Part shown: piece after piece, positions 5,434 to 63,925 of the stretch | Numbering within the stretch: position 1 is the stretch's first letter | Layout: the number at the start of each line of letters is the position of its first letter | Assembly: GCA_034231615.1 (NCBI GenBank) | Contig: CM067310.1 | Span: 3,702,510-3,766,509, forward strand | Direction: 5' to 3' | Source: Meghimatium bilineatum | Lineage: Eukaryota > Mollusca > Gastropoda > Stylommatophora > Philomycidae | Length of the DNA: 64,000 nucleotides | The notes under the pieces: model-generated | Told to the model about the DNA's origin: nothing | Database searches by the model: none | What the model saw: the letters and a program-made list of their open reading frames with translations, nothing else | Translations under genes and position numbers: made by a program

Positions 5434-8400
5434 CTTCAAATTACATATGTAAATATTACCTTTCATCTTTCTTCAAAATACATATGTAAATATTAACTTT
5501 CTTCAAACTACATATGTAAATATTAGCTTTCTTCAAACTACATATGTAAATATTAGCTTTCTTCAAACTACATATGTAAATATTAGCTTTCTTCAAACTA
5601 CATATGTAAATATTAACTTTCTTCAAACAACATACAGGTATGTAAATATAAGCTTTCTTCAAACAACATACAGGTATGTAAATATAAGCTTTCTTCAAAC
5701 TACATATGTAAATATTAACTTTCTTCAAACATATGTAAATATTAACTTTCTTCAAACTACATATGTAAATATTAACTTTCTTCAAAGAACATATGTAAAT
5801 ATTAACTTTCTTCAAACTACATATGTAAATATTAACTTTCTTCAAACTACATATGTAAATATTAACTTTCTTCAAACAACATACAGGTATGTAAATATAA
5901 GCTTTCTTCAAACTACATATGTAAATATTAACTTTCTTCAAACTACATATGTAAATATTAACTTTCTTCAAAGAACATATGTAAATATTAACTTTCTTCA
6001 AACTACATATGTAAATATTAACTTTCTTCAAACTACATATGTAAATATTAACTTTCTTCAAACAACATACAGGTATGTAAATATAAGCTTTCTTCAAACT
6101 ACATATGTAAATATTAACTTTCTTCAAACTACATATGTAAATATTAACTTTCTTCAAACTACATATGTAAATATTAACTTTCTTCAAAGAACATATGTAA
6201 ATATTAACTTTCTTCAAACTACATATGTAAATATTAACTTTCTTCAAACAACATATGTAAATATTAACTTTCTTCAAACAACATACAGGTATGTAAATAT
6301 AAGCTTTCTTCAAACTACATATGTAAATATTAACTTTCTTCAAACATATGTAAATATTAACTTTCTTCAAACTACATATGTAAATATTAACTTTCTTCAA
6401 AGAACATATGTAAATATTAACTTTCTTCAAACTACATATGTAAATATTAACTTTCTTCAAACTACATATGTAAATATTAACTTTCTTCAAACAACATACA
6501 GGTATGTAAATATAAGCTTTCTTCAAACTACATATGTAAATATTAACTTTCTTCAAACTACATATGTAAATATTAACTTTCTTCAAACTACATATGTAAA
6601 TATTAACTTTCTTCAAACTACATATGTAAATATAAGCTTTCTTCAAACTACATATGTAAATATTAACTTTCTTCAAATTACATATGTAAATATGTTTCAT
6701 CTTTCTTCAAATTACATATGTAAATATTATGTTTCATCTTTCTTCAAACAACATATGTAAATATTAACTTTCTTCAAATTACATATGTAAATATTATGTT
6801 TCATCTTTCTTCAAACAACATATGTAAATATTAACTTTCTTCAAATTACATATGTAAATATTATGTTTCATCTTTCTTCAAACTACATATGTAAATATTA
6901 ACTTTCTTCAAACTACATATGTAAATATAAGCTTTCTTCAAACTACATATGTAAATATTAACTTTCTTCAAATTACATATGTAAATATTATGTTTCATCT
7001 TTCTTCAAATTACATATGTAAATATTATGTTTCATCTTTCTTCAAACAACATATGTAAATATTAACTTTCTTCAAATTACATATGTAAATATTATGTTTC
7101 ATCTTTCTTCAAACAACATATGTAAATATTAACTTTCTTCAAATTACATATGTAAATATTATGTTTCATCTTTCTTCAAACTACATATGTAAATATTAAC
7201 TTTCTTCAAACTACATATGTAAATATAAGCTTTCTTCAAACTACATATGTAAATATTAACTTTCTTCAAATTACATATGTAAATATTATGTTTCATCTTT
7301 CTTCAAATTACATATGTAAATATTATGTTTCATCTTTCTTCAAACAACATATGTAAATATTAACTTTCTTCAAATTACATATGTAAATATTATGTTTCAT
7401 CTTTCTTCAAACAACATATGTAAATATTAACTTTCTTCAAATTACATATGTAAATATTATGTTTCATCTTTCTTCAAACTACATATGTAAATATAAGCTT
7501 TCTTCAAACTACATATGTAAATATTAACTTTCTTCAAACTACATATGTAAATATAAGCTTTCTTCAAACTACATATGTAAATATTAACTTTCTTCAAATT
7601 ACATATGTAAATATTATGTTTCATCTTTCTTCAAATTACATATGTAAATATTATGTTTCATCTTTCTTCAAACAACATATGTAAATATTAACTTTCTTCA
7701 AACTACATATGTAAATATTATGTTTCATCTTTCTTCAAACAACATATGTAAATATTAACTTTCTTCAAATTACATATGTAAATATTATGTTTCATCTTTC
7801 TTCAAACAACATATGTAAATATTAACTTTCTTCAAATTACATATGTAAATATTATGTTTCATCTTTCTTCAAACTACATATGTAAATATAAGCTTTCTTC
7901 AAACTACATATGTAAATATTAACTTTCTTCAAACTACATATGTAAATATAAGCTTTCTTCAAACTACATATGTAAATATTAACTTTCTTCAAATTACATA
8001 TGTAAATATTATGTTTCATCTTTCTTCAAATTACATATGTAAATATTATGTTTCATCTTTCTTCAAACAACATATGTAAATATTAACTTTCTTCAAACTA
8101 CATATGTAAATATTAACTTTCTTCAAACTACATATGTAAATATAAGCTTTCTTCAAACTACATATGTAAATATTAACTTTCTTCAAATTACATATGTAAA
8201 TATTATGTTTCATCTTTCTTCAAACAACATATGTAAATATTAACTTTCTTCAAATTACATATGTAAATATTATGTTTCATCTTTCTTCAAACAACATATG
8301 TAAATATTAACTTTCTTCAAATTACATATGTAAATATTATGTTTCATCTTTCTTCAAACTACATATGTAAATATTAACTTTCTTCAAACTACATATGTAA

Positions 8401-9855
8401 ATATAAGCTTTCTTCAAACTACATATGTAAATATTAACTTTCTTCAAATTACATATGTAAATATTATGTTTCATCTTTCTTCAAATTACATATGTAAATA
8501 TTATGTTTCATCTTTCTTCAAACAACATATGTAAATATTAACTTTCTTCAAATTACATATGTAAATATTATGTTTCATCTTTCTTCAAACAACATATGTA
8601 AATATTAACTTTCTTCAAATTACATATGTAAATATTATGTTTCATCTTTCTTCAAACTACATATGTAAATATAAGCTTTCTTCAAACTACATATGTAAAT
8701 ATTAACTTTCTTCAAACTACATATGTAAATATAAGCTTTCTTCAAACTACATATGTAAATATTAACTTTCTTCAAATTACATATGTAAATATTATGTTTC
8801 ATCTTTCTTCAAATTACATATGTAAATATTATGTTTCATCTTTCTTCAAACAACATATGTAAATATTAACTTTCTTCAAATTACATATGTAAATATTATG
8901 TTTCATCTTTCTTCAAACAACATATGTAAATATTAACTTTCTTCAAATTACATATGTAAATATTATGTTTCATCTTTCTTCAAACTACATATGTAAATAT
9001 TAACTTTCTTCAAACTACATATGTAAATATAAGCTTTCTTCAAACTACATATGTAAATATTAACTTTCTTCAAATTACATATGTAAATATTATGTTTCAT
9101 CTTTCTTCAAACAACATATGTAAATATTAACTTTCTTCAAATTACATATGTAAATATTATGTTTCATCTTTCTTCAAACTACATATGTAAATATTAACTT
9201 TCTTCAAACTACATATGTAAATATAAGCTTTCTTCAAACTACATATGTAAATATTAACTTTCTTCAAATTACATATGTAAATATTATGTTTCATCTTTCT
9301 TCAAACTACATATGTAAATATAAGCTTTCTTCAAACTACATATGTAAATATAAGCTTTCTTCAAACTACATATGTAAATATTAACTTTCTTCAAATTACA
9401 TATGTAAATATTATGTTTCATCTTTCTTCAAATTACATATGTAAATATTATGTTTCATCTTTCTTCAAACAACATATGTAAATATTAACTTTCTTCAAAT
9501 TACATATGTAAATATTATGTTTCATCTTTCTTCAAACAACATATGTAAATATTAACTTTCTTCAAATTACATATGTAAATATTATGTTTCATCTTTCTTC
9601 AAACTACATATGTAAATATAAGCTTTCTTCAAACTACATATGTAAATATAAGCTTTCTTCAAACTACATATGTAAATATTAACTTTCTTCAAATTACATA
9701 TGTAAATATTATGTTTCATCTTTCTTCAAATTACATATGTAAATATTATGTTTCATCTTTCTTCAAACAACATATGTAAATATTAACTTTCTTCAAATTA
9801 CATATGTAAATATTATGTTTCATCTTTCTTCAAACTACATATGTAAATATTAACT
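5434..9855. repeat. 4.4-kb satellite array of a 30-bp unit with higher-order repeats
   Basis: The unit is about 30 bp (CATATGTAAATATTAACTTT CTTCAAACTA), with variants ending in AAGCTT, GAACATATG, an inserted ACAGGTATG and a longer 37-bp TATGTTTCATC form. In 5434-6700 blocks of 5-7 plain units are separated by the CATACAGGTATG variant. From about 6700 an ordered set of variants repeats, for example every 298 bp between 6963 and 7261. The 414-codon minus-strand open frame (KKVNIYICSL repeated) comes from a stop-free unit whose length is a multiple of three and is not taken as a gene. Confidence 0.95.
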
Positions 9856-12953: not shown

Positions 12954-14017
12954 TGTTACAGCATCCCTCAAAAATATATTGTTACAACAACAAAAATATA
13001 TTGTTACAACAACAAAAATATATTGTTACAACAAAAATATATTGTTACAACAAAAATATATTGTTACAACAACCAAAATATATTGTTACAACAAAAATAT
13101 ATTGTTACAACAACAAAAATATATTGTTACAACAAAAATATATTGTTACAGCAAAAATATATTGTTACAACAACAAAAATATATTGTTACAACAACAAAA
13201 ATATATTGTTACAACAACAAAAATATATTGTTACAATAACAAAAATATATTGTTACAACAAAAATATATTGTTACAACAACAAAAATATATTGTTACAAC
13301 AACAAAAATATATTGTTACAACAACAAAAATATATTGTTACAACAAAAATATATTGTTACAACAACAAAAATATATTGTTACAACAACAAAAATATATTG
13401 TTACAACAACAAAAATATATTGTTACAACAAAAATATATTGTTACAACAACAAAAATATATTGTTACAACAACAAAAATATATTGTTACAACAACAAAAA
13501 TATATTGTTACAACAACAAAAATATATTGTTACAACAACAAAAATATATTGTTACAACAAAAATATATTGTTACAACAACAAAAATATATTGTTACAACA
13601 AAAATATATTGTTACAACAACAAAAATATATTGTTACAACAACAAAAATATATTGTTACAACAACAAAAATATATTGTTACAACAACAAAAATATATTGT
13701 TACAACAACAAAAATATATTGTTACAACAAAAATATATTGTTACAACAACAAAAATATATTGTTACAACAACAAAAATATATTGTTACAACAACAAAAAT
13801 ATATTGTTACAACAACAAAAATATATTGTTACAACAACAAAAATATATTGTTACAACAACAAAAATATATTGTTACAACAACAAAAATATATTGTTACAA
13901 CAAAAATATATTGTTACAACAACAAAAATATATTGTTACAACAAAAATATATTGTTACAACAACAAAAATATATTGTTACAACAACAAAAATATATTGTT
14001 ACAACAACAAAAATATA
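12954..14017. repeat. 1.06-kb minisatellite, 22/19-bp units, abutting the epimerase stop
   Basis: Units of ACAACAACAAAAATATATTG TT (22 bp) mixed with a 19-bp form lacking one ACA, about 50 copies. Because 22 and 19 are both 1 modulo 3, long frames in all three plus frames arise with no coding meaning. The epimerase stop is about 40 bp away, so the array probably lies in its 3' UTR. Confidence 0.95.
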
Positions 14018-14057: not shown

Positions 14058-17801
<3,744 letters not shown>

Positions 17802-44837: not shown

Positions 44838-45723
44838 CGAGGCGTGTTCAAATGAAAACGGGACTTGTTACACCACGCGTGATAGAGCGCACTGATATTG
44901 ATGACATTTTGCACTAGTAATGAGTATCCAATAATTTACATACAGTCACGTGTTCATCTTCCCAGCATGCATATGTGCTGCAGAAGACTGTTAACAATAT
45001 GGCGGGTGTGATTCCGAACCCGTCCAAAGTGAATCAGCGTGCTGTGATCCAGTTTCTTTCATTTGAAGGATGTCAAGCAGTAGACATTCATCGGAGAATG
45101 AAGGCAGCATATGGTGACAAATGTTTGTCGAGGACCAGAGTGATGGAGTGGGTGCGTATGTTTAAAGACGGACGTGAGTTAACGGCAGATCTTGCACGGC
45201 CAGGTCAGGCGCATATTGTTGCAACAGAAGAAGACACTTTAGACAAGCTGCATAAGGCCATCAAGGCTAAGCGACCAGGCAGACTTTCTCAAGGTGTGAT
45301 TCTTCTCCACGACAACGCTCGTCCGCACATCGCAAAAATTGTGCAGGAAACATTGGCAAAGAAGAATTGGGAAGTTCTTCATCACCCAGCCTATAGTCCC
45401 GATTTATCCCCGTGTGATTTCCATTTGTTCGGACCGTTGAAGAAAGCACTAAAGGGACAGCGATTCAACAGCGACGCAGACGTGAAGACAGCGGTGACCA
45501 CATGGTTCAGAGAACAGCCACGCAACTTTTTCTCGGACGGCATTCGACGTCTACCTAAACAGTGGGATGCTTGCCTAAATGCATACGGAGATTTTTTCTG
45601 ATGAACCCAGGTGCATTCTTATTCACAAGTGGTTGCTTTGTTCAATTCCGTTGAAAATATTAAATTGCGTATGATACTTTTTAAATAAATCCACAAGTCC
45701 CGTTTTCATTTGAACACGCCTCG
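44838..45723 (+). mobile_element. Internally deleted mariner with perfect 31-bp terminal inverted repeats
   Basis: CGAGGCGTGTTCAAATGAAA A... at 44838-44868 and its exact inverse at 45693-45723, flanked by TA on both sides (44836-44837, 45724-45725), the Tc1/mariner target. 886 bp against about 1.3 kb for a full element. The interior is one open frame (see 44975). Confidence 0.95.
44975..45601 (+). CDS. Mariner transposase, internally deleted but open (208 codons)
   Basis: The N-terminus (VNQRAVIQFLSFEGCQAVDI ... LSRTRVMEWVRMFKDGRE) is the first helix-turn-helix of mariner/SETMAR transposases. It then passes from ATEEDTLDKLHKAIKAKRP straight to VILLHDNARPHIA (second catalytic Asp) and YSPDLSPCDFHLFGPLKKAL (third Asp), ending in a normal C-terminus. 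The centre, with the second helix-turn-helix, linker and first catalytic Asp, is missing (about 130-140 residues by comparison with usual length). It cannot cut DNA but may bind the element ends. The ATG of MAGVIPN (44999) is the likelier true start. Confidence 0.9.
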   Translation: MLQKTVNNMAGVIPNPSKVNQRAVIQFLSFEGCQAVDIHRRMKAAYGDKCLSRTRVMEWVRMFKDGRELTADLARPGQAHIVATEEDTLDKLHKAIKAKRPGRLSQGVILLHDNARPHIAKIVQETLAKKNWEVLHHPAYSPDLSPCDFHLFGPLKKALKGQRFNSDADVKTAVTTWFREQPRNFFSDGIRRLPKQWDACLNAYGDFF

Positions 45724-53212: not shown

Positions 53213-53315
53213 TCAAAATTTAAAGTGTTCCGTGGCCATGTCTATAGCCCATCGAAACTTGTCTCTCTGGGTTTTGTTGTAAACCTTCTCAAGAGGCACA
53301 CCAAACTTTTTGCAC
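53213..53315 (-). CDS. TOP1: TOP1 terminal coding exon
   Basis: 103 nt. One base completes the Trp codon, then [20 protein letters not shown] and [13 protein letters not shown], then TGA at 53213-53215. Ending in ...FKF matches the conserved C-terminus of the family (human ...YEF). I could not assign a poly(A) signal in the few hundred bases beyond. Confidence 0.96.
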
Positions 53316-56300
53316 CTGAGGAAACAATTAAAAACAGTTTCACACATCAAACAACAATATGTACTCAGATATTAATATTAAATAAACATTGCTGTGTACT
53401 TTATCAAATCATTGTGCTTATATCATATAGGAACAATTTATTGGATGGAAGGATATGGCAACACTAACAGATAGTTCAATGTGAAATCTTTGATGAGAAC
53501 AGTGGGTAAAATGTGCTGTCACCAACAGATTCAAATACAACATATTCAAATACAACAGATTCAAATACAACAGATTCAAATACAACAGATTCCATCTACA
53601 GTAGGGGTGGGTACAATCCTACCATGGAAATGAAGATAAGAAGTTTTTAACAGTCCATCTAAAGGTGATGGTGAGAGAACAAGAGGACAAAGGAAAGTAT
53701 AGATTAATAATATTAAAGACTGGAAAATGATTTTCCACACTTAAAGAAATGGAATAGAAAGGCATGGCAGGATTTTTGTGGGTTTTTTTCCTCATGATTT
53801 ATTGTTTTAATGAATGAATGAGTCTATGGGAAAGCACTTGAGATCAAGCAGAACCGTAGGGGATGCCAGAGGATATTTTAAAGCCCGCCATTGACCACAT
53901 CAGGGTCCCCATTCTCCAACTTTCTGAAGGAGTTAACTCCCTTAGCCGTATGCATTCCTATTATGACTTACGCGACAAATGGGTTTAGTTTAATACTATT
54001 TATGATGAGGATGGATTTGCCTGGCCGTTGGCGCAAATACAAAGGCGGCAAAGCGCATTGCTGTTCTCTGGACTACATCTTGCTGGAAACCTAGTAGGAC
54101 CATTGCTCTGCTATAAGTAAAATCTGGTGGGAGTTTGAGAACGAATGCAAAGAAACAAATATAAACATTGTAATACGTATATATGACAGCACAGCAAAAT
54201 GACAAAAAAACTTAAGCAATCACTTCTGGCAGAAAATGTATGTGAAAAATATAAGTTCAACACTTCAGTGTCTAACCTTGTAGACAAATATCTTCTTCTG
54301 CATTCGTTTTCAAACTCCTGAAGATAAGCAGGATGTAGTCCAGAGAATGTTGTGTCATGGTTTAGAGCATTGCTGCGATATATGCGCCTTTTGGCCTGAC
54401 ACATCCGACTTCAGCATAGCTTTGGGTCACTGACCCTATATGGGATGGGACAGCCAACTCCATCCCATAACCTTCTTAGTCGCCTCGTACGACATGCGTG
54501 GAAGGTAAACAGTGTTGTTATTCTTTGCTCCCCTTTCGGGCCCCGACAACACACGGGCAGCGACAAATATACAAAGCAAACTTTCAGACATCATCATGTC
54601 ATCAAGTCTCTAACATTGAATACTCACCAAGCCACAGAGATTCTTGGATCCAGATAATTCAGCTTGGAGGTTCCCAGGGCGATTTCTTTATTTTCATCCT
54701 GTGGATACCATTTTGTATAAAACACAACTTACTAATATGGTGGAAGAAATAAGGATAATTTGTTCAGTACAAATTCATTCTACAATACAAAGAAAGTTAA
54801 GTGTCCAGCATTTAATATTTTCAGTCTAGGCCTTTTGTTTTTCACCTCTTATCCCAACACCATATAGTTTTCTCTGCATGAATGTTTTAAAGAGAACTTC
54901 CTTTCTCAGCAAAAGATTAAATCACAACCGCTTACTACGTTTAACGATTGTTAGTATGGTCCTGTTGTCCAGCAAGCACCATTACTGCGGCACCATCCAC
55001 TTTGTCGGACACCCTCTGACCATTTGGTTATTTATATTTGTCCAGCAAGGCTATGCTACATAATATATGTATGTTAACATTACACATTGTCTTTACATTG
55101 ATAGATATGTCACATCGGCTGTGTTGTTTTCATAAGTTGACTATTATCATTGATGTTATCCAAATCCAACTTCTTCTCTTTTTTCCCCTTGTCCTTGTTT
55201 AGAGTTCTTTTTATTGTTCTATTCATAATCTGATGAATCGTAAAGTTCGGTAATTGAAGTGGGTTGAATGAAGCGAATGGCTAAAAGTACCTTCAATGAC
55301 ATGAGGAAATTATTAATATCTAAACAAATTACAAACAAGTTAAAAATGAGAATTATAAAATGCTACATCTATTCCATATTAATGTATGGCTCAGAAACAT
55401 GGACACTAAATAAACAATTAGAAGACAAAATTGATGCCTTTGAAATGTGGGTATATAGAAGAATAGGGAGAACATCATGGAAAGAGAAGAAAACAAATAA
55501 AGAGGTGCTAAAGACACTTAATATGAAGAAAGAACTACTAAGAGAAATAAAGATCAGGCAAATAAAATACTTTGGACACATTAAAAGACATGACACCCTA
55601 TTGAAGACCTTACTTGAGGGTAAAGTCAAAGGGAAGCGAGCAAGAGGTAGGCAGAGATACAAGTGGGAGAGTAACATTACACGATGGACAGGTTACAGTC
55701 TAGCAGAGTGCACCACCAAGACAAGAGACAGGAGATGTTGGAGATACGTTGCAGCCAACCTTCGTTGCGGAGACGGCACTTGATGATGATGATGATGAAT
55801 GAAGCCTAAACCATCTTTCTGCCAATATTCTTCTTCCACCAACAATATATGGCAGAAGAGCCAGGGGTAGAACAAAGGAAACACTCAGATGAACAATATT
55901 TAGAGAAATTAAAACAAACAACATTTATACTATTCAAGACCTGCACAGAATAGCTTTGAACAGACAGAATTGGAGAGATCTGACCTCTGCACTAACTTCA
56001 GCGCTAAAGGAAAATGAATGAAATAGTCTTTATCGACCATAAGTAGAAGTACTAAGAATAAATGGAAATAGACTGTCACTACACGCATAAAAAGGGGTAC
56101 CAGATGGCAAAAGAAAAAGAGGAAGATCAAGAAAGACTCTTTACAGAACAATCATCAAAGAGGGTATGACTATATGTCTCAACAACATGCAAGAATTACA
56201 CACAGTAGCATCACATCGCTGGAACTGGAAAGCACTGATTTCTGCCCTATGCAATATATTCAGCACAGAAGAAACATAGATAGATAGAATTGAAGAAAAA

Positions 56301-59300
56301 CAATACAACTGACCTTGTCTGTTGCCTGGACCTCCAGTTTCATGAGCTGATCTTCAAGTCTGCATAACGTCTTCTTCTTCTTCTCATACATCCTAAAAAG
56401 AATGGTACATAAAGAAACATTACAGCACATTCTAGGATGATAGATGCACACTCAGCACAAAGATGTCGAACAACACATTTTTTAATGTCCAGTGCTGGAT
56501 TATATTAGAAAAATGCTTCTCCCTCGCGGTCAGATAAACCCTCGCGGTCAGATAAACCCTCGCGGTCAGATAAACCCTCGCGGTCAGATAAACCCTCGCG
56601 GTCAGATAAACCCTCGCGGTCAGATAAACCCACGCGGTCAGATAAACCCTCGCGGTCAGATAAACCCTCGCGGTCAGATAAACCCTCGCGGTCAGATAAA
56701 CCCTCGCGGTCAGATAAACCCTCGCGGTCAGATAAACCCCCGCGGTCAGATAAACCCTCGCGGTCAGATAAACCCTCGCGGTCAGATAAACCCTCGCGGT
56801 CAGATAAACCCTCGCGGTCAGATAAACCCTCGCGGTCAGATAAACCCTCGCGGTCAGATAAACCCTCGCGGTCAGATAAACCCTCGCGGTCAGATAAATT
56901 GAACACCCTAATATAGAACAACACAACCGATCACAAACACGTGTATATATTTGGTCAAAGGGCATAAGCCCATGAACCACTGGATCAGCAAGCAACCAAA
57001 GAAACAGTGAGGTGTTACCTTCGTCTTCTGCTTTTGTTCTAACACTTATGCAGGTTAGCAGGACAAAATCCAGAGAATGGAATGTGATGTGGTGTGTCAT
57101 GGTTTACATCTTTGCTGTGATATCTGCACCTTTCGACCTGACTCATCCGACTTCAGCATGGTTTCTGGGTCATTTTGACCCTACATGGGGTGGGCAGGCC
57201 AATTTCACCCCATAACCTCCTTTAGTTGTCTCTTATTACACTATGAAAGGTAAACAGTATTGTTATTGCTTGCTCCCCTTTCAGGAACTGGCAACACATG
57301 CGGGTACCACCAATGAATGAAGTGTAATATCAACAAGCTAGACACTAAAGAAATGATGCACAGCATGGACAACTCTACAATTTGAACGTGCCTTCATGAA
57401 TATCTAGTGCTAGTATACACAAATCTAAACAACCAACCTTACTATACGCCTGCGAAATGTGGACAGTGTATGCTAGACATGCAAGAAAGTTAAATCATTT
57501 CCATCTTACCTGCCTACGTAAATTACTAAACATCCATTGGTGGGACAAAGTACCAGACTACGAGGTCTTGGAAAAATCAACCTCAATAAGCATCCACACA
57601 ATACTTATGAAGGCGCAGGCACGCTGGGCAGGCCATCTTGTGCGTATGGAGAACTCGCGTTTGCCAAAACAAATATATTATGGAGAACTCAAGGCAGGAT
57701 TTCGAAAAGCTGGTGGACAGAAAAAGCGTTTCAAAGACACGCTCAAGTCATCCTTGAAACATCTTAACATTGACGTAGGCGCTTGGGAGAGCCTCGCTCA
57801 GGATAGAACAGCATGGCGTTACAGCATTAGAACGGGAGCACTAGCGGCAGAAGAATTCAGACAAGAAACTGCAAGACAGAAGCGGACACGTAGAAAAGAA
57901 AAAAACATCCCAACCTCACACAGATACCTTCTATTGTTGTCAATTCTGTAAAAGAACATTTTGTGCGCGCATTGGACTTGCTAGTCATTTAAAAACGTAC
58001 TATTAACTTTATTATTTTATTATTTATTGTTATTATTATTATGGTTGAGTTTTTGGTCATCGTCGATCACGACGGACGAACATCATCAGTGCTAGTATAC
58101 ACAAATCTAAACAAGTTCAGGCATGTAAATGGAAATCCCTCATGTGTGCAGCAACATATGGCCAGCCAAACCATTTTTTTACTGTAAACAGAAGGTCACA
58201 AAGTAAACAGAAGGGATCAAATAAAAGTAGCTACAGTATTGTCTTAGTTTTTCGTTACATAGAACGACAACCTGGCCCACAAGCGCTTCTCTGCAAAACA
58301 AGTTCTGGGGAAGTCATAAAACAAACTGCTTTTGTACAGAATCAATATTGGACTGGATGTTTAATAATTAATTTCAGAAATGGAAGAAAATGATGATATA
58401 ATCCCTTTAGCTGGGAGCAGGTAGCTTTTGACAGCCCATAGTCTTTCTAAAAGAAGCACAGGTTCTTCTCAGCTATGCAACTGAGGCGATACCCGGATCC
58501 ATATAAGGCTGACTCAATGGCAAGGTTGTGTAAGGGGGGTTTACAGATGCATGTTTTAGTCCCTAAAAGGAGGCATTCCAGTGTTGAAGCATCCCAAAAC
58601 TACCACGTCCTGCCATAGGCACAGCACACACTTCTGGACCAACTATCTCATCACTCTTCTGTCAGATTCAATCACCCCTCTACAGTGACGGCACCTAGGA
58701 GTCTGTCACAAAGTAACAAAGGTTCAATGTGCGCTGCCCTGCATCTCTTTGTCATCTTGGATATTATTTCATAGAAGACAAATGTAAGAAATTCAGACAA
58801 GATGTAACAAGATTTTTTACGAGTGACAGGTTGTAAACCTATCTCCCAACTTTCCTTTGCTGTCTCTCATGACATACCTGGAAAGAAGACAGTGACCCTA
58901 TTCTTTGCAACCTGAACAATTGTCTTTACAATTGTCTTTTTGTCAATTGTCTTACAATTGTCTGCAATCTAAGTCCAGGCTCAGGCCCGAGAAAAAATTA
59001 AGAACTAGTAAACTGATAGACAAAAGATATTATCTCAACAGCTGAGTACCATGAGTGCACCAACAGGACCAATGTTTAAGAATCTTTTTCTTCTTCTGCG
59101 TTCTTTCTCAAACTCCTGCAGATTAGCAGGATGTAGTCCGGAGAACGGAATGCATTGTGTCATGGCCAACTCCATCCCATAACCTCCTTAGTCGCCTCGT
59201 ACGACATGCATGGAAAGTAAACAGTTTTGCTATTCTTTGCTCCCCTTTCGGGCCCCGACAACACACGGCAATGTTTAAAAATTACAACTATGTTTAAGAC

Positions 59301-62300
59301 TTACAGTTTTGTTTTGACAGATTTCTGCTGCTTGTAGCCTGCCTTGATTCCCTTGATCTCTTTCTTGACTTCCTTGATCTCAGCTTTCTTGGAATCAACC
59401 TGACATGAGAAACATAACAGTCATTAACAGTCATCTATGACTATCCACAAGGATATCCAGATTTCAATGGCAAAAAAATATACTCAAGAGGTCATGGCTA
59501 CACAATATCCCTAGCAAATAGTTAAATTTCCCTCAGAGTTACACGATCATATCCCTAGCAAATAGTTAAATTTCTCTCAGAGCTACACGATCATATCCCT
59601 AGCAAATAATAAAATGTCCCTCAGAGCTACACGATCATATCCCTAGCAAATAGTTCTTTCCAAAATCATAAAAATGCACCAGGAAATCACCGCAGACATG
59701 GAGAGAAGATTACAGGTTTTTGAGTACAAATGCTACAGATGAATTCTATGAATTTCCTATAGGGAACATAAGACCAATGTGTACGTAAGAAATAGAGATG
59801 TGTGCAGGTGTTCAGGAGCCATTGCTTTCAATAGTGAAATGATGAAAACTAGCATGGTTCGGACATGTATGCAGGCAAGATTCCTTGTCAAAAACAATAC
59901 TGCAGGGAACTGTCAAGGGTGGAAGAAGCAGAGGACAAATAAAGGCACGGACAAACAAAATCAAGGAATGGACAGGGCAAGATATTTCCACAATCATCCG
60001 CATCACTGAGGATAGAATTCGCTGGAGGACTCTGTGTGCTGAAGCATCCAATGTGGTACCACTACAACCCTGAAGGGTTACGGGTTTATTGATTGCTTGA
60101 TTTATATAAATGTGAAAAAATCATTCTATACCAACTCAAAATGCTGTGTTAGAACAGAAAAATTCAGAATGGTTCCCTGTGATTCCTGGTGTTAAACAAG
60201 GCTGCCCTATGTCACCACTACTATTCAATATTGCAATTGACTTGGCTATGAGAAAAAGCACATCCAACACAAATTTAGGAATCAAATGGATTCATAAAAC
60301 AACATTAGAAGACCTGAATTATGCTGGTTATCTTGCACTATTGAGTGAAAACCATCAAAATGCACAAACAAAAACTGATAGATTAAAACTCATCGCAGGA
60401 CAAATAGGCCTCCAAATCAATTCAGCAAAAACACCATTAATTTAAATGGACAACAACTTGAAAAAGTACAGAAATTCTCCTATCTAGGAAGCAAATTAAC
60501 ACTCGACGGTGATGTCATGACAGAAATTACAACTTGCATTGCACTAGCATCAAGTGCCTTTAACAGACTGTCTAATATCTGGAGGTCAAAGTCAATCAGC
60601 ACACGTACGAAAATGCGCTGATTTAATTCCTGCTTTATTCTGGTGCTATCATATGGATGTGAGAGCTGGAAAAGCTCTTTATCTTCAGAAAAGAGATTAC
60701 TGAGTTTCGAGAACAAATGTCTTCGTAGGATAACTAACACCCATTGGAGTGAATTCAAATCGAATGATTAAATCAGAGAAGAGACACATCAAAATTTCAT
60801 CACAGATGTTATCAGAAAATGCCTTTGGTCCTACATCGGGCATGTCCTACACGCAGACATAAACAGAATACACCACCAATCTCTTGAATTGATACCTGCA
60901 GGCAAAAGAGTAAGGGGTAGACCAAAAGAAACACTCAGAAGAACAAAACTTAGAGAAAGTAAAACAATCAATATCCATACTATTCAAAAACTGCACAGAA
61001 TAGCTTTGAACAGACAGAATTGGAGAGATCTGACCTCTATGCGCTAACTTCAGCTGCAAAAGGAAAATGAATGAATGAAGCACATAAAGAATAGATGAAA
61101 CAGAAGTGTATACCTTCTTCATGAGATTATCCATGGACTTCTCAAAGGTTTTTGGAACAGCTCGTTGATGGTTACACAGAATGGCTACAGCCCTGTTTGC
61201 TCTGTTGTAAGCAAGCATCTTGGCTGCCACAGAGTCATTACCTGCACAATAAACAGTGTGATAATCTCTCACATCATCACAAATGTAACATTAAAATTAA
61301 ATGATTCAGTATCTCATGCCAATCAATCAAGTTTTAGAATAGTTTATAAATATATTAAGAGATTATTAAAATAAATAAAGATCAAACAAATAAAGTATTT
61401 TTGACAAATTAAAATACATGACACCATCTTGAAGACCTTACTTAATGGTAAAGTCGAGGGGAAGCTAGAAAAAGTTAGGTGGAGATACAAGTGAGAAACA
61501 TCACAAGATGGACAGGCTACAATCTGAGCGTGCCACCAAGGCAAGAGATCACCGAGCCAAATTTTGTTGTGGAGACAGCACTTAATGATGATGATGATTA
61601 TATAGAAGAGTCCAGATGTCAAAATAGGCCCAGAAGTGAATCAGACCTCTGTCTCTTGCCGTGTTGATCATCATTAAGTGCTGTGTCTGCAACAAAGGTT
61701 GGCTGCAACAGACCTCCAACATCCCGTCTCTTGTTTTGGTTGTGCACTCTGCTAGACTGTAACCTGTCCATCTTGTGATGTTATTCTCCCACTTGTATCT
61801 CTGTCTACCTCTTGCTCGATTCTACCTTCAAGTAAAGTCTTCAACAAGGTGCCCTGTCTTTTAATATGTCCAATATATTTTATGTGTTTGATCTTTATTT
61901 TCCTTTATTAGTTCTTTTTTCATATGAATTGTTGTCAGAACATCTTTGTTTTCTTCTCCTTTCATAAGTTCTCCCTATTTTTCTATATATCCACACCATT
62001 ATCTTAAGCGTTCATTCTCAAACTCCTGCTGGATATCTCTTGTAGTAAGACAATGGTCTTACTAAATTTCCAGCAGGATGCAGTCCAGAATGGAAATGTG
62101 TCGTGTTGCTGTTTTATTTGCATCAATGGCCCGACACATCTGTCCTCTGCCATATATCCACAACTCGAAAGCATCCATTCTGTCTTCTAGCTTTTTTTTC
62201 ATTATGGGTATTAATATTTTCTTCATCATTGAACATGTATGGTTCTTTAAGGGGAGAAGTACCTACATTCCAACTTTTTATCAAACCTTGTTGTCACAAT

Positions 62301-63925
62301 GGTTAATTTAATCGAAGATTAAAAAGTCGCTGGGCTGCTTTGAAAGTTTGGACTGCTCCTGAAAGCATCGATCTGCACGCTACACACTGAGTTCAAATCG
62401 ATGAATCTAGCAACTACAAAATGTGTCTTTATCAACATTTTATTTAGTTAAATAATTAAATTATTTGTTTCATTAAAATGTAGGTACTTCACCCTGTACT
62501 GTACTGAAAGTACTTTTAACCATCTTATTATCCTTTTAACCTGTTTCACATCTACCATCATTTGTGATTCTGCTATACACACCAAAGCACACACAGAAAT
62601 AGCCTTATTTTCAAAATGGAGAACTAACAGATTTATACCTTCTCAAGGATGTCCAAGCAGCAGATAGATTTCAAGCTTCAACTTACCACTTGTTAGCATT
62701 TCAAGTTGTTCAGAGAGTGTTTTCGAGGCATTGAATGTACGAAACACTTTTGCTGTAAGACCCTCCATGAGATCTTGGAGATGTTTATTGAGAATGGTGG
62801 TCTGCAAACAGGAAAATATGTGTTATCAGCAATATAACTGATGTAAAAATGGGTTAGTCTGTTGTGTGTGCGATTGCTTAATCTTGTGCGATTGCTTAAT
62901 CTTGTGAGACTGCTTTATCTCGTTTCATTGCTTAATCTTGTTTTATTACTTAATCTTGTGAGACTGCTTAATCTCTTTTCATTGCTTAATCTTGTTTTAT
63001 TACTTAATCTTGTGAGACTGCTTAATCTTGTGAGACTGCTTAATCTTGTGAGACTGCTTAATCTCGTTTCATTGCTTAATCTTGTGTCATTGCTTAATCT
63101 TGTGAGACTGCTTAATCTCAATTCATTGCTTAATCTTGTTTGTTTCATTGCTTAATTTTGTGTGATTGTTTAATCTAAAGTTTGATTGTTTAAATGCCAT
63201 CTGCAAAACGCAACACAAATTTCCGGGTGTGACACCCTTAACAACTTTTTAACAAATTTGTGATTCATCCCTATCCAGTTTTGTAACTAGAATCAAGTTT
63301 AAATTTAACTTTTTAACCTTTAGCACACGCATGTCAAACTTAGACTCCATCAATATCATATACTTACATTCAGCCTTTCAACCTACTCCACCAATATCCC
63401 ATACTTACATTCAATCTGTCAAACCTAGACTCCACCAATTTCATATACTTACACTCAACCTGTCAAACCTAGACTCCAACAATCCCATACTTACACTCAA
63501 CCTGTCAAACCTAGACTACAATAATGTCATATACTTACACTCAACCTGTCAAACCTAGACTCCAATAATGTCATATACTTACACTCAACCTGTCAAACCT
63601 AGACTCCACCAATGTCATGTACTTACACTCAACCTGTCAAACCTAGACTCCCCCAATGTCATATACTTACATTCAGTCTGTCAAAAAGATCATCCTCTGG
63701 CTGCTTATTCTCCATAAATAACTGAAGATTCCTATATACACGTTTCTCCACAGGTATTGCATTCTGATAGCGAATGGAGTCTTTCCCAAGGAAGTCAAAC
63801 TCAACAACGTTCTGCTTCTCACCTCTCTCATCATGTAGCTTGATATGCTCCACACGCAAAGAGCAACAACCGACAGTATCTGCTGTTTCTCCTTCTTCTT
63901 TTTCATTGCCGGCTCTCAGGGCAAG
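53213..63925 (-). CDS. TOP1: DNA topoisomerase I, 3' seven coding exons (gene continues off the right edge)
   Basis: Nuclear type IB topoisomerase: it nicks one DNA strand through a 3'-phosphotyrosine, lets the helix swivel and reseals it, relaxing supercoils during transcription and replication. Coding exons in transcript order: 63925..63671, 62801..62687, 61241..61114, 59399..59305, 56392..56314, 54698..54628, 53315..53213. All introns are GT..AG and all phases agree. The joined exons give 281 residues, the same length as human residues 485-765, with no gap needed. All catalytic residues are visible: Arg in LALRAGNEK, Lys in FLGKDSIRY, Arg in KVFRTFNAS, His in LCNHQRA and the nucleophile Tyr in [10 protein letters not shown] (human 488, 532, 590, 632, 723). 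Introns are 869, 1445, 1714, 2912, 1615 and 1312 bp and are filled with minisatellites and retroelements. The N-terminal and core exons lie beyond 63925. The gene looks intact and functional. Confidence 0.96.
53524..53595. repeat. 16-bp tandem repeat, 4-5 copies, TOP1 intron
   Basis: Unit AGATTCAAATACAACA. Confidence 0.9.
53820..53965. repeat. Dispersed repeat D4, copy 2 (TOP1 intron)
   Basis: Diverged match to 46605-46755. Confidence 0.55.
54004..54156 (+). mobile_element. SINE-A copy (TOP1 intron)
   Basis: GATGAGGATGGATTTGCCTG GCC to GAGTTTGAGAACGAATGCAA AG; older than the other copies by divergence. Confidence 0.8.
54291..54558 (-). mobile_element. SINE-B copy (TOP1 intron)
   Basis: CTTCTTCTGCATTCGTTTTC to CCCCGACAACACACGGGC, body complete without the tRNA head, 70 bp downstream of the active-site exon donor in gene direction. 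Confidence 0.88.
54628..54698 (-). CDS. TOP1: TOP1 exon: active-site tyrosine
   Basis: 71 nt encoding [20 protein letters not shown] then SVA and two bases of a Trp codon. The nucleophilic Tyr (human 723) is the TAT codon at 54654-54656. The acceptor is TATCCACAG and the donor GTGAGT. Being present and uninterrupted, it argues that the gene is active. Confidence 0.97.
54976..55038 (+). repeat. Dispersed repeat D5, copy 2 (TOP1 intron)
   Basis: Inverse match to 39143-39216. Confidence 0.6.
55263..55795 (+). mobile_element. NL2 retrotransposon 3' end, open 171-codon frame (TOP1 intron)
   Basis: The plus frame 55268..55783 is uninterrupted: [77 protein letters not shown] and [17 protein letters not shown]. 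This is the C-terminal part of a non-LTR reverse-transcriptase polyprotein, 5' truncated, ending in a (GAT)n tail as in the family's other copies. An open frame implies recent insertion. It is antisense to TOP1. Confidence 0.85.
55796..56280 (+). mobile_element. NL5 retrotransposon tail, decayed (TOP1 intron)
   Basis: Aligns with 60850-61070: GCAGAAGAGCCAGGGGTAGA ACAAAGGAAACACTCAGA, GCACAGAATAGCTTTGAACA GACAGAATTGGAGAGATCTG ACCTCT. A second similar tail follows (56090-56280). Confidence 0.65.
56314..56392 (-). CDS. TOP1: TOP1 exon: end of linker
   Basis: 79 nt. One base completes the split Leu codon, then [18 protein letters not shown] and [20 protein letters not shown] is almost invariant in animal TOP1. 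The acceptor is TTCTTTTTAG and the donor GTCAGT. An 18-bp GC-rich array starts about 130 bp upstream of this acceptor, in the preceding intron. Confidence 0.96.
56519..56899. repeat. GC-rich minisatellite, 18-bp unit, 21 copies, TOP1 intron
   Basis: Unit CCCTCGCGGTCAGATAAA, nearly perfect (one CCCACG and one CCCCCG unit). Each unit carries two CpGs in an otherwise AT-rich region, so it is a 380-bp CpG-dense block 127 bp upstream of a TOP1 acceptor. Confidence 0.97.
57022..57305 (-). mobile_element. SINE-B copy, diverged (TOP1 intron)
   Basis: GTCTTCTGCTTTTGTTCTAA to GGAACTGGCAACACATGCGG. Confidence 0.8.
57406..58114 (+). mobile_element. NL3 non-LTR insertion with perfect 27-bp target duplication (TOP1 intron)
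   Basis: AGTGCTAGTATACACAAATC TAAACAA occurs exactly at 57406-57432 and 58088-58114. Between them 655 bp encode the 3' end of a non-LTR element: [57 protein letters not shown], then after a frameshift near 57900-57930 [22 protein letters not shown], a C-terminal zinc finger whose last His is Tyr. 5' truncation and a long target duplication are normal for target-primed reverse transcription. Confidence 0.92.
58400..58720 (+). repeat. Dispersed repeat D3, copy 2 (TOP1 intron)
   Basis: Matches parts of 26875-27430 but lacks its 27094 hammerhead-like stretch. Confidence 0.55.
59090..59269 (-). mobile_element. SINE-B copy with about 100-bp internal deletion (TOP1 intron)
   Basis: Runs TTCTTCTTCTGCGTTCTTTC ... 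GTGTCATGG then directly CCAACTCCATCCCATAACC ... CCCCGACAACACACGG; the middle with the GTCGGATGTG block is missing. Confidence 0.85.
59305..59399 (-). CDS. TOP1: TOP1 exon: coiled-coil linker
   Basis: 95 nt encoding [31 protein letters not shown] and two bases of a Leu codon. Lys/Glu-rich helical sequence is as expected for the two-helix linker that joins the core to the C-terminal domain and slows strand rotation. This is the least conserved exon, and it was recognised from phase, splice sites (CATGTCAG acceptor, GTAAGT donor) and position. Confidence 0.9.
59500..59655. repeat. Minisatellite, about 43-bp unit, 3-4 copies (TOP1 intron)
   Basis: Unit CTCAGAGCTACACGATCATA TCCCTAGCAAATAGTTAAAT TTC. 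Confidence 0.9.
59690..60075 (+). mobile_element. Non-LTR retrotransposon tail, decayed (TOP1 intron)
   Basis: Plus frames read [35 protein letters not shown] and [37 protein letters not shown], a widespread non-LTR C-terminus, broken by stops and frameshifts. Confidence 0.65.
60120..61070 (+). mobile_element. NL5 non-LTR reverse-transcriptase fragment, catalytic motif lost (TOP1 intron)
   Basis: Plus frames read [20 protein letters not shown], then [20 protein letters not shown] where the catalytic YADD is [41 protein letters not shown] and [13 protein letters not shown]. Several stops break it. Dead copy, antisense to TOP1, ending 44 bp from a TOP1 donor. Confidence 0.75.
61114..61241 (-). 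CDS. TOP1: TOP1 exon: core with His632 equivalent, start of linker
   Basis: 128 nt. The first two bases complete the Gly codon begun in the previous exon, followed by [28 protein letters not shown] and [12 protein letters not shown]. It contains the catalytic His of CNHQR, which stabilises the transition state. The acceptor is ATTGTGCAG and the donor GTATAC (weak but GT). It ends in phase 0. Confidence 0.96.
61360..61600 (+). mobile_element. NL2 retrotransposon 3' fragment (TOP1 intron)
   Basis: ATAAATAAAGATCAAACAAA TAAAGTA, ACATGACACCATCTTGAAGA CCTTACTT, GATGGACAGGCTACAATCTG and a final (GATGAT)n. Confidence 0.75.
61662..62200 (-). mobile_element. NL2 retrotransposon fragment, opposite orientation, split by SINE-A (TOP1 intron)
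   Basis: The reverse strand from ATCATCATTAAGTGCTGTG through ACTGTAACCTGTCCATCTTG to TTCTCCCTATTTTTCTATAT, resuming after the SINE with the frame [10 protein letters not shown]. It lies tail to tail with the copy at 61360. Confidence 0.75.
62008..62151 (-). mobile_element. SINE-A copy with 11-bp target duplication, inserted in NL2 (TOP1 intron)
   Basis: GCGTTCATTCTCAAACTCCT GCTGG to GACACATCTGTCCTCTGCC; ATATATCCACA is on both sides (about 61985-61995 and 62153-62163). Confidence 0.88.
62687..62801 (-). CDS. TOP1: TOP1 exon: core with Arg590 equivalent
   Basis: 115 nt encoding [15 protein letters not shown] through EQLEMLTS plus the first base of a Gly codon (ends in phase 1). The acceptor is TGTTTGCAG and the donor GTAAGT. 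It contains the catalytic Arg of [10 protein letters not shown]. It joins the preceding exon as RLN/TTILNK, matching the family. Confidence 0.97.
62868..63178. repeat. Minisatellite, about 18-20-bp unit, about 16 copies (TOP1 intron)
   Basis: Variants of GCTTAATCTTGTGAGACT and GCTTAATCTYGTTTCATT alternate; ends about 65 bp upstream of the acceptor of exon 62801..62687 in gene direction. Confidence 0.92.
63335..63670 (-). repeat. TOP1: Minisatellite, 44-bp unit, derived from the TOP1 exon/donor boundary
   Basis: Unit on the plus strand TCATATACTTACACTCAACC TGTCAAACCTAGACTCCAAT AATG. On the transcribed (minus) strand each unit reads TTTGACAGGTTGAGT/GTAAGTATATGA, against TTTGACAGACTGAAT/GTAAGTATATGA at the true exon end. 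Decoy GTAAGTA sites are at 63620, 63576, 63532, 63488, 63446, 63402 and 63361 (left coordinate), spaced 41-44 bp; the real one is at 63664. Confidence 0.93.
63671..63925 (-). CDS. TOP1: TOP1 exon: catalytic core with Arg488 and Lys532 equivalents
   Basis: Eighty-five codons, phase 0 at both ends, from [12 protein letters not shown] to EDDLFDRLN. The acceptor is ATCCTCAG on the minus strand (AG at 63926-63927) and the donor is GTAAGTAT (63663-63670). It holds the catalytic Arg of ALRAGNEK and the Lys of FLGKDSIRY. The last bases of the exon and its donor resemble the unit of the minisatellite that follows at once in the intron, so the exon end appears to have seeded that array. Confidence 0.97.

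Follow-up and report, generated by a model that had tools for sequence, protein, structure and literature searches.

A minisatellite across an exon–intron junction of TOP1

We analysed a 64,000-nucleotide stretch of the genome of the gastropod Meghimatium bilineatum (GenBank GCA_034231615.1, contig CM067310.1), referred to below as the window. Judged from its translated sequence, the right end of the window carries the 3′ region of an animal-type TOP1 on its minus strand, and one exon of this gene ends inside a tandem array with a 44-bp unit. The 85-residue product of this exon aligns over its full length to chains named DNA topoisomerase I, the best being 1nh3 (E = 3e-43), which we take to be the human enzyme. 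It also matches the Pfam family Topoisom_I (E = 2.3e-34), and an initial annotation of the sequence was right to assign the exon to TOP1. GT/AG splice sites are present at its ends, with the acceptor reading tcctcag/CTTGCC and the donor ACTGAAT/gtaagt. A comparison of the 85-residue sequence with bacterial and archaeal contigs gave 59 pattern matches and one with viral contigs gave 4, none of them confirmed, from which nothing follows for animal relatives. The features of the junction are these:

63671-63925, minus strand: TOP1 exon of 85 codons, phase 0 at the donor (protein match, Pfam, splice signals)
63332-63685, minus strand: 44-bp minisatellite, eight units plus 7 bases, with the real exon end inside unit 0 (Tandem Repeats Finder, TRF)
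63671-63685, minus strand: exonic half of unit 0, the final 15 bases of the exon, TTTGACAGACTGAAT (sequence)
63664-63670, minus strand: presumed real 5′ splice site, GTAAGTA (from protein match and reading frame)
63620-63626, minus strand: decoy donor 1, GTAAGTA (motif search, as for all decoys)
63576-63582, minus strand: decoy donor 2, GTAAGTA
63532-63538, minus strand: decoy donor 3, GTAAGTA
63488-63494, minus strand: decoy donor 4, GTAAGTA
63446-63452, minus strand: decoy donor 5, GTAAGTA
63402-63408, minus strand: decoy donor 6, GTAAGTA; exon-like half identical to the exon at 14 of 15 bases (alignment)
63361-63367, minus strand: decoy donor 7, GTAAGTA; CTGAAT of the exon kept in the exon-like half (alignment)
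63332-63338, minus strand: terminal TTTGACA, the heptamer of the exon edge, beyond which likeness to the unit ends (sequence)

TRF reports a period of 44, 8.2 copies and 87% matches for the array. It had been placed directly after the exon, but it starts 15 bases inside the exon and extends over 63332-63685. Unit 0 coincides with the junction, TTTGACAGACTGAAT/GTAAGTATATGACATTGGGGGAGTCTAGG, and is made up of the last 15 exon bases and the first 29 intron bases, so that the repeated unit spans both the exon and the intron sequence of the adjoining real junction, which is the defining property of the arrays known as mirages. Behind the first GTAAGTA follow seven more, one in each of the seven copies. 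Their first bases on the minus strand are 63670, 63626, 63582, 63538, 63494, 63452, 63408 and 63367, giving steps of 44, 44, 44, 44, 42, 44 and 41 bp, in agreement with the seven junction-like copies at 41-44-bp intervals described initially. These eight are the only occurrences of the heptamer on the minus strand of the window, and the plus strand has four, which are scattered. The sequence before the donor is TTTGACAGGTTGAGT in units 1-5 and TTTGACAGATTGAAT in unit 6; in unit 7 the exon-like half is one base shorter in the alignment used here and ends in CTGAAT. The copies had been called nearly identical to the junction, and this holds for the exon-like half (12-14 of 15 bases), but exact TTTGACAGGTTGAGT occurs in only five of the seven copies and exact GTAAGTATATGA in only four.

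The junction is the likely seed of the array

In a fixed register, the exon-like half agrees with the exon end at 12 of 15 positions in units 1-5 and 7, and at 14 of 15 in unit 6. The likeness could in principle reflect chance, or convergence with a repeat of the intron. We scored 15-mers outside the array for the same agreement. None of the 7,886 that precede a GT on either strand reaches 12, and among 15-mers of any context only 1 of 127,208 does so, which disposes of the objection that the exon-like half might be no closer to the exon end than chance. The intron half extends the likeness in register: unit 0 is identical to a hand-typed unit consensus at 40 of 44 positions, and a search of the whole window with a 22-base degenerate junction pattern, allowing at most three mismatches, returned eight places, all in the array. 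In 100 dinucleotide shuffles the same search gave a mean of 0.01 and a maximum of 1, with none reaching eight. What can be said for chance is that, among the 288 ways to encode FDRLN, the peptide at the exon end, 33 reach 12 of 15 against the unit. They do so because the copies read FDRLS in the frame of the exon, and such a reading is what descent from the exon predicts. We regard chance or convergence as having practically no prospect of being correct.

The exon peptide ends in DDLFDRLN, and the same residues, without change, are found in the solved topoisomerase I 1nh3. Because this stretch is identical, the exon is the older sequence and the source of the array. Together with the identity of unit 0 and the match of the exon-like halves, this upholds the proposal that the junction seeded the array, which we consider very likely.

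The differences among the units give some indication of its history. The exon and inner units 1-5 differ at three bases of the exon-like half (A, C and A in the exon); unit 6 agrees with the exon at two of these, unit 7 also at two, and the two units jointly at all three, although single bases common to the exon and the outer units could also be mutations of the repeat. Pairwise comparison gives 1-6 differing columns within units 1-5, 7-10 between these inner units and units 6 or 7, and 10 between units 6 and 7; for unit 0 the distance is 5-9 columns to the inner units and 7 to units 6 and 7. The outer units are thus less homogenised than the inner ones, in a small sample of eight units in which inner unit 4 is itself 5-6 columns away from the other inner units. 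The simplest history would be that the junction served as seed and that inner units were amplified and homogenised while outer units were left behind. At 63382-63509 on the minus strand, GTAAGTATGGGA is common to units 4 and 6, while units 0, 2, 3, 5 and 7 have GTAAGTATATGA; this distribution suggests exchange between non-neighbouring units.

The heptamer TTTGACA stands at both edges of the array (63685-63679 and 63338-63332), forming a 7-bp direct repeat. This fits slippage between short direct repeats, with modest force, since chance alone would leave at most eight bases past a whole number of units in roughly 8 of 44 cases (by simple arithmetic). According to excerpts of PMC3389668, tandem repeats can arise between direct repeats 5-10 bp long, a second model has an incomplete last unit, and in 300 human arrays derived from transposons the flanking repeat was most often 7 bp. 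The array would fit either birth model.

Use of any decoy would introduce a stop codon

Splicing at decoys 1-7 would add 44, 88, 132, 176, 218, 262 and 303 bases, respectively. The initial annotation saw the cost of decoy use in a broken reading frame, and five of the seven do shift the frame; 132 and 303 keep it. The main cost is instead a common TGA. All seven decoy products reach this same stop after three extra codons, at codon 89 if the first codon of this exon is number 1. It falls upstream of the TOP1 exon that contains the motif SKLNYLDPR, presumably the exon with the catalytic tyrosine. Since any decoy brings in the same TGA, a working TOP1 enzyme needs the first donor.

Choice among eight donors

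Taken together, these observations make us fairly confident that the array is a mirage-type minisatellite born across the junction, in which the first donor is used and the seven copies are inert decoys. In this reading, a 44-bp segment reaching from the TTTGACA at the exon end to a second, intronic TTTGACA would have been duplicated in tandem, most likely through slippage, or unequal exchange, involving the two heptamers; the duplicate would then have been amplified, with partial homogenisation, up to eight units. In the mRNA, the donor at 63670 would be used exclusively, and the seven copies would leave with the intron and presumably have no function. No special cause has to be invoked for an array across a junction, because the window is so dense in tandem arrays: 42 of them, counted after merging, occupy 16,753 of its 64,000 bases (26.2%), 26 being 100 bp or longer, and 1 of the 13 TOP1 junctions that we placed (7 acceptors and 6 donors) lies inside an array when compared by eye.

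Several points weigh against this reading. Protein match and reading frame are the grounds for presuming that the mRNA uses the first donor, and the computed properties of the donors do not single it out. With a hand-typed 5′ end of U1, the computed pairing energy of the first donor is –7.3 kcal/mol. Two decoys have the same value, one has –7.8 and four have –8.3 kcal/mol (these four including pairs beside a bulge), so the first donor is not the best. Predicted openness is 0.006 at the first donor and 0.002-0.149 at the decoys, five of the seven being more open. None of the eight units departs from the heptamer GTAAGTA (P = 0.023 by columns), and at least 19 changes have accumulated among the seven copies with none in GTAAGTA (P = 0.037 by events), a weak hint that the donors may be under constraint. 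Selection on the heptamer is nevertheless not significant, as some change-free stretch of seven columns appears in 57% of random placements (P = 0.57). As to the birth of the array, the heptamer at its far edge is indistinguishable, without an outgroup, from a partial last copy, and PMC3389668, in excerpt, states that the two known birth models may cover only 6% of its repeats.

The donors had been described as strong consensus sites. Their intron half is indeed perfect; at –1, however, the exon has T, and of the 7,949 GT sites on both strands of the window, 141 equal or exceed the weakest array donor (–7.3 kcal/mol) in U1 pairing. The next three TOP1 donors give –9.1, –5.7 and –5.4 kcal/mol, compared with –7.3 for the donor at the array junction. 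We also considered whether RNA structure of the array hides the decoys and rejected this idea (the array RNA is less stably folded than its shuffles, z = 1.52, with 93 of 100 shuffles folding at least as well; the first donor is predicted to be less open than five of the seven decoys). Neither computed U1 pairing nor predicted folding of the eight donors thus gives the first an advantage, and the likely reason for its choice is exon definition, that is, recognition from the exon side.

Two other accounts accept the same origin of the array and differ in giving the copies a role. In one, the decoys are sometimes spliced, the stop-bearing TOP1 transcripts are destroyed, and the length of the array tunes output. 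TOP1 is generally essential in animals, which counts against such an arrangement. In its favour are the computed values, by which no decoy has weaker U1 pairing than the first donor and five of seven are more open. Excerpts of PMC5585400 report that SRSF1 activates intron-proximal donors, the position that the decoys hold here, and shifts choice between close donors toward them, with hnRNP A1 cited for the intron-distal direction; because these proteins can shift the choice, leakage to the decoys could occur. For human IFI6, likewise, an excerpt of PMC4526556 speaks of a transcript in which two repeat units further downstream serve as donors. On the other side, amphioxus mirages are reported without disturbance of splicing in excerpts of PMC3087553 and PMC3902484. 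On balance, we find the account improbable.

In the other, the ladder is kept as a platform for U1 that aids the first donor, with its T at –1, or blocks early polyadenylation. Eight GTAAGTA lie within about 310 bases, with none elsewhere on the minus strand of the window, and two AATAAA (63001 and 62947) and one ATTAAA (63174) are found downstream of the 44-bp array in the same intron; protection by U1 against premature polyadenylation is described in published abstracts. However, the invariance of the heptamer is not significant. The window is rich in repeats, with 42 arrays of which this is one, and the hexamers that resemble polyadenylation signals belong to a different tandem array. We regard this account as very unlikely, and the role as an intronic enhancer or suppressor of polyadenylation that had been put forward for U1 binding is unsupported. 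The broader idea that a ladder of eight donors, of which only the outermost yields enzyme, might tune TOP1 output by its length, through unproductive splicing or loading of U1, is in our view doubtful. We thus favour an array of inert decoys behind a first donor that is always used.

The host intron and other features of the window

The intron that contains the decoys and the TOP1 exons that follow are laid out as listed here:

62802-63670, minus strand: host intron of 869 bp, 649 bp of which are two tandem arrays (array map)
62867-63176, minus strand: second array of the same intron, 18-bp unit (TRF), containing the three hexamers given above
62687-62801, minus strand: next TOP1 exon, after the 869-bp intron
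61114-61241, minus strand: further TOP1 exon (translated sequence, as for the next three)
59305-59399, minus strand: further TOP1 exon
54628-54698, minus strand: further TOP1 exon
53213-53315, minus strand: further TOP1 exon
About 56314-56392, minus strand: further TOP1 exon (encoded protein seen; ends counted by hand)

We considered that the 18-bp array might have amplified a branch-point-like motif, AGACTAACCC, but an equal match occurred in 140 of 500 shuffles and the idea was rejected. A different TOP1 intron contains another array with a 44-bp unit (59505-59655, 3.4 copies), about 100 bp upstream of the acceptor and not including the junction.

Elsewhere in the window, an open frame of 298 codons from stop to stop (14061-14954, minus strand) encodes a NAD-dependent sugar-nucleotide epimerase/dehydratase by its matches to Pfam Epimerase (1.8e-25) and, among solved structures, best to 6vo6, named putative sugar-nucleotide epimerase/dehydratase (E = 4e-58). 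About 40 bp past its stop begins an array (12969-14017) with about 49 copies of a 22-bp unit. A 4.4-kb tandem array at 5434-9855 has 30-bp subunits within a 298-bp higher-order unit. The window also has a mariner-like transposase remnant at 44924-45598 on the plus strand (DDE_3, 6.5e-08; HTH_48 below its cut-off) and an open reading frame with an RNase H domain at 260-886 on the minus strand (1.3e-09), probably part of a retroelement.

Comparison with known systems

The array has the anatomical features of mirages, namely a unit that spans the junction and a splice signal in the copies. It is a further example of a published kind, and the kind itself is already known. In the open-access literature, where no search was aimed at TOP1, we came across no array of this type described for the gene. 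Its value is that of an example, a clean instance of a core gene in which an exon–intron junction has become a minisatellite. Should splicing always pick the first donor, the locus would also be a natural experiment in donor choice among eight near-equal competitors, with every wrong choice penalised.

Excerpts of PMC3087553 and PMC3902484 describe mirages in the Adh, globin and troponin C genes of amphioxus, and similar repeats in PGBD5, as minisatellite-like tandem copies across an exon–intron boundary, many of which carry the splice signal, as they do here; troponin C and PGBD5 come from PMC3902484. The host gene and the unit length differ, being TOP1 and 44 bp as compared with 10-72 bp in Adh3 and 150-160 bp in the globins (PMC3087553, in excerpt). 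The same source notes that boundary units of BflGb6 escape homogenisation, as outer units 6 and 7 appear to have done in TOP1, and it proposes duplication of junctions as a route to new introns. The direct-repeat models of minisatellite birth (Haber and Louis; Taylor and Breden, as presented in the excerpt of PMC3389668) share with the TOP1 array the edges formed by a 7-bp direct repeat and the partial last unit. In PMC6692358, the length of a variable number tandem repeat (VNTR) is said to track alternative splicing of MIR137HG; the donors there are outside the VNTR, and we do not use it as a parallel. Closer is the minisatellite of human IFI6 (6-16; Turri et al. 1995), whose tandem units, by the account excerpted from PMC4526556, offer donors at an exon end. 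There, splicing is said to employ two downstream units and to give protein isoforms, whereas in TOP1 any decoy would lead to a stop codon.

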